DNA from: Sphingobacteriaceae bacterium
GTDB lineage: Bacteria; Bacteroidota; Bacteroidia; Sphingobacteriales; Sphingobacteriaceae
Direction of reading: 5' to 3'
DNA: 64,000 nt
Assembly (NCBI GenBank): GCA_947463785.1
Contig: CANHRG010000001.1
Coordinates: forward strand, 361,475 to 425,474
Under the pieces are notes generated by a model that was given only the letters and a program-made list of their open reading frames with translations, was not told the origin of the DNA and did not search any database. Below are positions 33,881-36,141 of this stretch, one piece after another; within the stretch, counting starts at the first letter, position 1, and the number at the start of each line of letters is the position of its first letter. A program made the position numbers and the translations under genes.

Positions 33881-33929
33881 CTTTCTTTTTCTAAAGCATT
33901 TGGATTTTTAACGTTGATATAGGGCTGAT

Positions 33930-34163
33930 GGCCTAGGTAAAGTCCTACTTTGTGATGGAGAAGTGCTACTGGGAGACGGATAAGTCTTACTTGGCGATGG
34001 AAAAGTCAAACTGTATCGTGGGATAAGAGCTACTTTGCCTTGGCTAAGTCTTATTTGGCCTTGGATACAAGCTACTGTGTCGTGGTGAAGTCTAACTGTG
34101 TGCGGGATAAGTCTTACTTGGCCCTAGATGCTGGCTACTGTGGCCTGCATACAAGCTACTGGG
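33930..34163. repeat. Eleven-unit degenerate 21-bp tandem array between convergent genes
   Basis: Eleven copies of a motif close to AAGTCTTACTTGG recur at 33940, 33961, 33982, 34003, 34025, 34046, 34067, 34088, 34109, 34130 and 34151. Every step is 21 bp except one of 22. Many units contain a small dyad AAGT-N3-ACTT, and the others read AAGCTACTG. The bases between the motifs vary but often read GGAT or TTGG. The array fills the gap between the SprT-like gene and the fused E1 gene, ending at the E1 stop codon. In-frame stops argue against coding. 33881-33929 shows nothing recognisable. Confidence 0.9.
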
Positions 34164-34164
34164 C

Positions 34165-36141
34165 TTAATACCGCAGTAGCTTATTTATAGTTTCTTCTAG
34201 TCTGGCTTTAGCCAAAAACTGATCTTCGAGGGCTTTGCTCATCGGTATAGCCGTATCTAAGCTGGCGCAACGCATTACGGGCGCATCCAAACTTTCGAAG
34301 GCGTGTTCGGCAATGTAGGCGCTCAGTTCTGCACCAAAACCGTTGGTGAGTGTATCTTCATGTAAAATAAGTACTCGACCAGTTTTGCGGACGGTTTCTA
34401 ACACGGCTTCGGTATCCCAAGGTTGTAGGCTGCGTAGGTCGAGCAGATCTGCTTCTAGTTCCGGATGCTTATCCAGATACTCCAATGCCCAATGTACACC
34501 TAAACCATAGGTGATGATGCTCAATTGTTCGCCACTCCTAATACGACATGCTTTGCCGATTTCGGTGGTGTAATAATCGTCGAAAATGGGCTCTGCAATA
34601 CCGCGGTATAAATACTTGTGCTCAAAATACAAAACCGGATTTGGGTCTTCGATGGCGGAAAGTAAGAGCCCTTTGGCGTCTGAAGGGAATGCCGGATAGA
34701 CCACTTTCAGTCCGGGGGTTTTGGTAAACCAGGCTTCGTTGCTTTGCGAATGGAACGGACCTGCACCGGTGCCTGCTCCGGTAGGCATGCGAACTACCAC
34801 ATCGGCTTTTTCGCCCCAACGGTAATGGGTTTTGGCCAAATTGTTGATGATCTGATTAAATCCGCAAGTTACAAAGTCGGCAAATTGCATTTCCATTACG
34901 GCTTTGTAGCCATTGATGGATAAACCCAGTGCGGCACCTACGATGGCCGATTCGCAAATGGGGGTATTGCGCACCCGGTCTTTGCCAAATTCTTCTACAA
35001 AACCCTGGGTAATTTTGAAAGCACCGCCGTATTCGGCAATGTCTTGCCCCATGATTACCAAATTGGAGAACTTCTGCATGCCTGAACGAAGGCCATCACT
35101 TATGGCATCGATGTAGCGTTTTTCAGTTTGGGCTCCGCTTGCCTGAATGAGCGGTACGTAGCCTGGCGCATACATGTCTTGCAGTTCTTGCTGAGCATCG
35201 GGTTCCATATCCGGCATGGCAAATACGGCTTCTACGTCTTGTTCAATTTCGTGTTTAAACTGCACTTTAATGGCTTCGATTTGAGCCTCATCCAAAATGC
35301 ATTCTTCCAATAGAAAATCTTCAAAATTTTGAATCGGATCTTTTTCTTGCCAGGTATCAAATAATTCTTGCGGCACATACTTCGTGCCGGATGCTTCTTC
35401 GTGTCCACGCATGCGGAAGGTTTTGCACTCTACCAATACGGGTCGAGGATTGTTGCGCAGGTCTGTTGCCAGTTCGTGGATGGTATGGTAAACTTCCAGG
35501 ATGTTGTTGCCGTCAATCAGTCGCCCTTCCATGCCGTAGCCTTTTGCCCGGTCTACCAGGTTTTCGCAGCGGTATTGTTCATTGGTTGGGGTAGAAAGGC
35601 CGTAGCCGTTATTTTCAATAATGAAAATGACGGGCAAATCCCATACGGCAGCTACATTGAGCGCCTCGTGAAAATCGCCCTCGCTGGTGGCTCCTTCGCC
35701 GGTGTAAGCCAGGGTTACTTTCTGTTCTTTTCTGAGTTTATGCGCCAGTGCAATGCCATCTGCCAGGGCCATTTGGGGCCCTAGGTGAGAAATCATCCCA
35801 ATAATGCGGTAATCCTGTGTGCCGAAATGGAAAGAACGGTCGCGGCCTTTGGTAAAACCTGCCGCCTTGCCCTGCCATTGGGCCATTAAACGGGTTAATG
35901 GAATATCCCGGGAGGTAAATACACCTAAATTTCGGTGCATGGGCAAAATGTATTCGTCGGTTTGCATAGCCATTGTGCTGCCTACGGCTATGGCTTCTTG
36001 CCCTATGCCTGAAAACCATTTGCCAATTCTGCCCTGACGCAGCAGAATCAACATTTTCTCTTCGATCATTCTCGGTTTGAGTAAACGCTGGTAAAATTGT
36101 ATTAGCGTGTTATCATCTAGGTTTCGACGATCGAAATGCAT
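34165..36141 (-). CDS. 2-oxoacid dehydrogenase E1, fused alpha and beta subunits
   Basis: A 658-residue fusion. The alpha part (about 1-320) has the thiamine diphosphate region GEGATSEGDFHEALN...IIENNGYGLS. The beta part (about 335-658) has QDIAEYGGAFKIT, TPICESAIVGAALGL and the transketolase C-domain (LHEDTLTNGFGAEL). Such fusions in Bacteroidota are annotated as branched-chain 2-oxoisovalerate or general alpha-ketoacid dehydrogenase E1. The substrate is not certain from sequence. The thiamine motif starts GEG where GDG is usual. E2 and E3 genes are absent here. It lies 22 bases downstream of lutB on the same strand. Confidence 0.9.
   Translation of the reverse strand: MHFDRRNLDDNTLIQFYQRLLKPRMIEEKMLILLRQGRIGKWFSGIGQEAIAVGSTMAMQTDEYILPMHRNLGVFTSRDIPLTRLMAQWQGKAAGFTKGRDRSFHFGTQDYRIIGMISHLGPQMALADGIALAHKLRKEQKVTLAYTGEGATSEGDFHEALNVAAVWDLPVIFIIENNGYGLSTPTNEQYRCENLVDRAKGYGMEGRLIDGNNILEVYHTIHELATDLRNNPRPVLVECKTFRMRGHEEASGTKYVPQELFDTWQEKDPIQNFEDFLLEECILDEAQIEAIKVQFKHEIEQDVEAVFAMPDMEPDAQQELQDMYAPGYVPLIQASGAQTEKRYIDAISDGLRSGMQKFSNLVIMGQDIAEYGGAFKITQGFVEEFGKDRVRNTPICESAIVGAALGLSINGYKAVMEMQFADFVTCGFNQIINNLAKTHYRWGEKADVVVRMPTGAGTGAGPFHSQSNEAWFTKTPGLKVVYPAFPSDAKGLLLSAIEDPNPVLYFEHKYLYRGIAEPIFDDYYTTEIGKACRIRSGEQLSIITYGLGVHWALEYLDKHPELEADLLDLRSLQPWDTEAVLETVRKTGRVLILHEDTLTNGFGAELSAYIAEHAFESLDAPVMRCASLDTAIPMSKALEDQFLAKARLEETINKLLRY

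Follow-up and report, generated by a model that had tools for sequence, protein, structure and literature searches.

Bacterial tandem repeats are usually read as products of slippage. Plasmid iterons, which are helically phased direct repeats of 17–22 bp, are among the described systems that are closest to the array reported here. The latter is located in the window (the whole 64-kb stretch of DNA that was analysed), which belongs to a small-genome Bacteroidota bacterium designated G000. Like iterons, the array is composed of degenerate direct repeats, arranged head to tail at near two helical turns. In contrast to iterons, arrays of this family are chromosomal, occupy several unrelated loci, comprise 6 to 19 units, and have no recognised replication initiator gene beside them. 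CRISPR arrays also have a regular period, but the present arrays do not contain identical repeats and unique spacers, the whole unit being variable. Minisatellites (VNTRs) resemble the arrays in being formed of intergenic, head-to-tail tandem units whose number differs between relatives. However, nearly identical units are expected for minisatellites, whereas the array units are 42–77% identical to their neighbours (mean adjacent-unit identity within arrays of 0.42–0.77 in the eighteen that were measured) and yet keep an exact register. In addition, the arrays share their period at unrelated loci despite different unit sequences. The REP/BIME elements of enterobacteria are likewise intergenic and present in several copies per genome, and arrays of the sister clade are associated with another module on a fixed side, but the array units are non-palindromic and have one orientation per array, and no other module was found in the window's clade. 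The array does not display all the tested defining features of any described family. A search of the literature revealed no description of such arrays; a report on lake bacteria mentions intergenic tandem repeats in general terms only, for Planctomycetota (PMC9426551).

The window array consists of eleven degenerate 21-bp units (33938..34163, plus strand; approximate consensus CTGGATAAGTCYTACTTGGCC). The first six units are anchored at positions 33941, 33962, 33983, 34004, 34026, and 34047, and the last five at positions 34068, 34089, 34110, 34131, and 34152. The ten steps are therefore nine of 21 bp and one of 22 bp, the latter between the fourth and fifth units (34004 to 34026). The lag-21 self-match, measured over 200 bp, was 0.57 at position 33940, about 8 standard deviations above the mean of the window (0.27, standard deviation of 0.036), the runner-up site reaching 0.375. 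The anchors and the self-match confirm the copy number and the single irregular step that had been proposed by a sequence-only reading of this DNA. Tandem Repeats Finder did not go beyond the first 3.3 units, as the remaining units are too diverged. The two unit subtypes proposed by the same reading are real, and similar pairs also occur elsewhere in the genus. In contrast, the dyad AAGT-N3-ACTT, which had been attributed to many units, is exact in only three of the eleven (33940, 33982, and 34109) and lacks conservation in the rest of the family's arrays. The flanking genes are convergent, as had been stated. The left gene encodes a SprT-like protein (PF10263; 33266..33880, plus strand) and its stop codon is separated from the array by a spacer devoid of repeats (33881..33937). 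The right gene encodes a fused dehydrogenase E1 (alpha plus beta), as identified from its sequence (34165..36141, minus strand), and its stop codon directly adjoins the array.

Location of the array at the 3' ends of two genes is compatible with a role at the RNA level, as a terminator, a 3'-end stabiliser, or a structured transcript. An mRNA 3'-end structure had indeed been considered as an alternative. However, the RNA fold energies obtained in four tests were within 1.2 standard deviations of those of shuffled sequences, no terminator was found in the gap between the SprT-like and E1 genes, and no Rfam family matched the array. An RNA-level element is therefore very improbable. Since 21 bp correspond to seven codons (a heptad), the repeats could also derive from a coding heptad repeat or from its relic, and some arrays do have one or more frames open from end to end. 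Several other arrays contain stop codons in every frame, no shared open frame in a common register was found across arrays, and the 22-bp step introduces a frameshift in the window array. A coding origin is effectively refuted for the latter array and, for the family as a whole, we give it the lowest probability of all the explanations considered. Finally, DNA curvature, estimated with a wedge model, showed no consistent excess in comparison to column-permuted arrays, and signals at lags of 10 and 11 were inconsistent between arrays.

Additional arrays were sought by 21-bp periodicity rather than by unit sequence, 824 kb (ca. 45%) of the G000 genome being scanned in this manner. About 20 arrays of 21-bp period were identified, and the six genus genomes that were examined all contained such arrays. 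Within its 824 kb, G000 harbored three such arrays: the window array (A1), A2 (contig C1, ca. 98.1 kb), which is flanked by convergent genes, and A3 (contig C1, ca. 36.5–36.9 kb), which is flanked by tandem genes and located just upstream from a gamma-glutamyltransferase gene. Six arrays were present in 570 kb of G001 (JAPLFD01, a Sphingobacteriales MAG from Lac Pavin) and three in 620 kb of G002, in addition to two, including a short one, next to the hairpin element described below. At least one array of 21-bp period was present in G003. The period was 21 bp for all 18 measured arrays, and no array passed the identical scan at periods of 19, 20, 22, 23, 25, or 26 bp, none of these six control periods being a multiple of 3. 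Matches of period 21 at L055, L078, L178, L189, and L132 were discarded as they appear to be located within coding repeats, and L110 was rejected for its many periods and low-complexity look. Thus, the array is neither restricted to the window nor related to arrays with other spacings, two outcomes that would have made a phased binding role unlikely. The arrays of G001, G002, and the other genus genomes also support the alternative of an intergenic repeat family of the lineage. Since both ideas find support, they are not exclusive.

The family is not readily detected by sequence similarity. A DNA-similarity search of G000 found the window array apparently confined to its own site, because the units diverge fast, and a strict two-unit pattern matched nothing but the window array. 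A degenerate pattern of two G001-type units, searched in 84,980 species genomes, matched only G001 and one alphaproteobacterial sequence, although the resulting lineage limit applies to the G001 unit type only, because arrays differ in unit sequence. The alphaproteobacterial match (L046; JAJPHG010000020.1, an Alphaproteobacteria MAG) is isolated, and chance alone would produce approximately one such match. In 400 kb from four other genera of the family, nothing comparable was recognised, and the plasmid, phage, and viral collections contained no match to the array.

The genes adjacent to the arrays encode SprT-like, E1, amidase, peptidase, GGT, and other proteins, and their orientation is convergent at some loci, tandem at several, and divergent at one. 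A preference for convergent genes, which had been envisaged, was therefore not observed. These data also bear on the possibility that each array binds one factor of a known type, in the manner of iterons, centromere-like sites, or upstream activating sites, and fulfills a local function at its own site. The resemblance of direct repeats of about two turns to plasmid iterons and the fact that A3 ends at a putative gamma-glutamyltransferase promoter in G000 and G004 are in favor of this explanation. It is nonetheless improbable, as there are several arrays per genome with no gene function or orientation in common, and as the arrays that were examined have no recognised replication or partition gene alongside.

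Comparison of orthologous loci revealed gain or loss of arrays and changes in unit number. From stop codon to stop codon, the SprT-like and E1 genes are 284 bp apart in G000 and 328 bp in G004, the distance being –15 bp in G005 and –11, –4, 2, 12, 44, 189, and 756 bp in other species. Since these genes are overlapping or almost contiguous in most outgroups, the array is the gap itself: it does lie in a convergent gap, as the sequence-only reading had it, but it did not fill a pre-existing one. A related array is present in the A1 gap of G004 and also in G001, where it adjoins the SprT-like gene. No array is present in the A1 gap of G005 and G002, indicating that the array is dispensable in these species. 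The simplest reading is a gain of the A1 array in the G000/G004 line, the alternative being a clean loss in G005. For A2 and A3, 21-bp arrays occupy both gaps in three species (G000, G004, and G005), whereas no array was found next to the corresponding genes in G001 and G002, nor in the examined part of the A3 locus of G003. The A2 units of G004 and G005 are colinear (0.63 versus 0.44), and their alignment includes one gap of exactly one 21-bp unit. At one orthologous site with flanks ca. 95% identical, comparison between species revealed 14 units in G001 (L181) and 6 in G002 (L162). Length differences between relatives corresponded to whole units (21 or 42 bp). A 42-bp period due to alternating subtypes is frequent in genus arrays outside the window, near-identical alternating dimers are found in arrays of G001 and G005, and one G002 array contains two unit types mixed in phase. 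At the A3 locus (L149, L153, and L049), the array ends, in G000 and G004, where a conserved stretch resembling a promoter (approximately GCTGATATTnTTTATCTTAGG) precedes the gamma-glutamyltransferase gene; in G005, ca. 90 bp of other sequence are present in between.

The difference in unit number at the orthologous site of G001 and G002, the near-identical dimers, the presence of arrays between genes with no appreciable gap in most outgroups, and the restriction to a lineage, as far as tested, all fit the main rival explanation. According to the latter, the arrays are neutral or selfish minisatellites generated by slippage or unequal recombination, mostly of 42-bp dimers, with a period that stems from the copying itself and nothing bound to the DNA. 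We regard this as a serious possibility, although clearly below an even chance, for the following reasons. None of the 18 arrays is near-perfect and the identity of adjacent units averages 0.77 at most, whereas young satellites should be cleaner. A2 and A3 are old arrays with little trace of recent copying, yet they keep one motif in three species. The register outlasts a divergence that is expected to bring many small indels.

The latter point was assessed with the rigid lag identity (21 × d), which was nearly flat up to d = 8–9 for most arrays. Neutral decay, simulated with a star-like history, led to loss of the register (Fisher p = 2e-12 and 3e-13 for substitution to indel ratios of 10:1 and 20:1, respectively) and was still a poor fit at a ratio of 100:1 (p = 3e-5). 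Arrays that no longer have a register would escape the period scan, but gene orthology, not period, led to four of the arrays (A2 and A3 in both G004 and G005). Since these arrays behave alike, the concern about ascertainment is reduced. As had been claimed, spacing is therefore preserved far better than sequence in the genus arrays. Such a register beyond neutral expectation is the feature shared with helically phased protein-binding arrays, although the excess falls short of significance when the window array is taken by itself, owing to its 22-bp step. Step counts from unit alignments were not retained as evidence because the procedure is biased towards 21, shuffled controls likewise giving 140 of 145 steps of 21; the rigid-lag test was used instead. 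In G000, the A3 units are as similar to the A3 units of other species (0.40–0.41) as they are to each other (0.41), in comparison to 0.26–0.27 in the wrong register, and identity hardly drops across seven units. The A1 units are barely more similar to those of A2 or A3 than background. Judging from these identities, the A3 motif is a maintained loose motif rather than the outcome of recent copying. Column conservation peaks at unit positions 2–4 and 12–16, approximately one turn (ten bases) apart.

In the sister clade, the arrays are accompanied by a hairpin element rich in GC (GGCCCGGCAGAACGGCGGGCCAGCGTAAAGGCC...GCAGAAGCATCGTTCTGCC, then a TTTTTATCAAGAAAAA-type palindrome), which was found in this clade only, among the genomes searched. 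The element was located at L066, L072, L081, L082, L176, and L181 in G001 and at L162 and L194–L198 in G002; it was not found in G000. The 570 kb of G001 contain 11 copies, and the six arrays of this genome are all less than 600 bp from a copy, always on its 5' side. Two of the four G002 sites looked up by the hairpin element alone contained a 21-bp array, also on the 5' side. The regular association with the hairpin element indicates that the arrays also act as one module within a family of repeats. This family is composed of arrays alone in the window's clade, and in the sister clade it also includes the GC-rich hairpin as a module.

The explanation that we favor, tentatively and at slightly less than an even chance, is that the array belongs to a genus-specific, BIME-like repeat whose two-turn phase is constrained, most likely for protein binding on one face of the DNA. 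Such an element would be copied and expanded by units, its helical phase remaining under constraint. Each unit would provide a loose putative recognition site, the two better-conserved blocks, ca. ten bases apart, being exposed on the same face of the helix. A candidate DNA-binding protein, of the nucleoid type or encoded by the element itself, might occupy neighbouring units cooperatively, and the bound array might shield a gene from its neighbour, organise DNA, or help the element to persist. We infer protein binding along the array; since units vary between arrays of the same genome, either more than one protein would take part or one protein would need to accept widely varying sites. The more specific proposal that selection keeps the phase rather than the exact sequence throughout the genus, the arrays acting as scaffolds for a cooperative DNA-binding protein that would read loose motifs at two-turn intervals on one face and form a filament over intergenic DNA, is rather unlikely. 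Overall, the array would be closest to a phased binding array in its action, and it grows as a satellite does. About 20 arrays, most of them at sites unrelated to each other and with units that differ, have exactly the same period of two turns of the helix and retain it as sequence similarity is lost. If a protein is behind this period, the arrays would represent phased DNA scaffolds of an unfamiliar kind in Bacteroidota. Otherwise, they would provide a clean natural system for analysing how satellites keep their period.

Two additional observations were made. Members of a family of proteins of 243–260 residues (SETGHAKNVATFN...SFCQGY) are encoded next to arrays at three sites (L040:117-899, L036:1727-2494, and L072:17841-18572), and a Pfam scan of one member gave no match. 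In G011, which belongs to another genus of the family, L135:2530-2860 contains a degenerate heptamer array of the TTCAAGG / AGTTTTT type with a 7-bp register over ca. 330 bp, possibly a comparable case with a different period.
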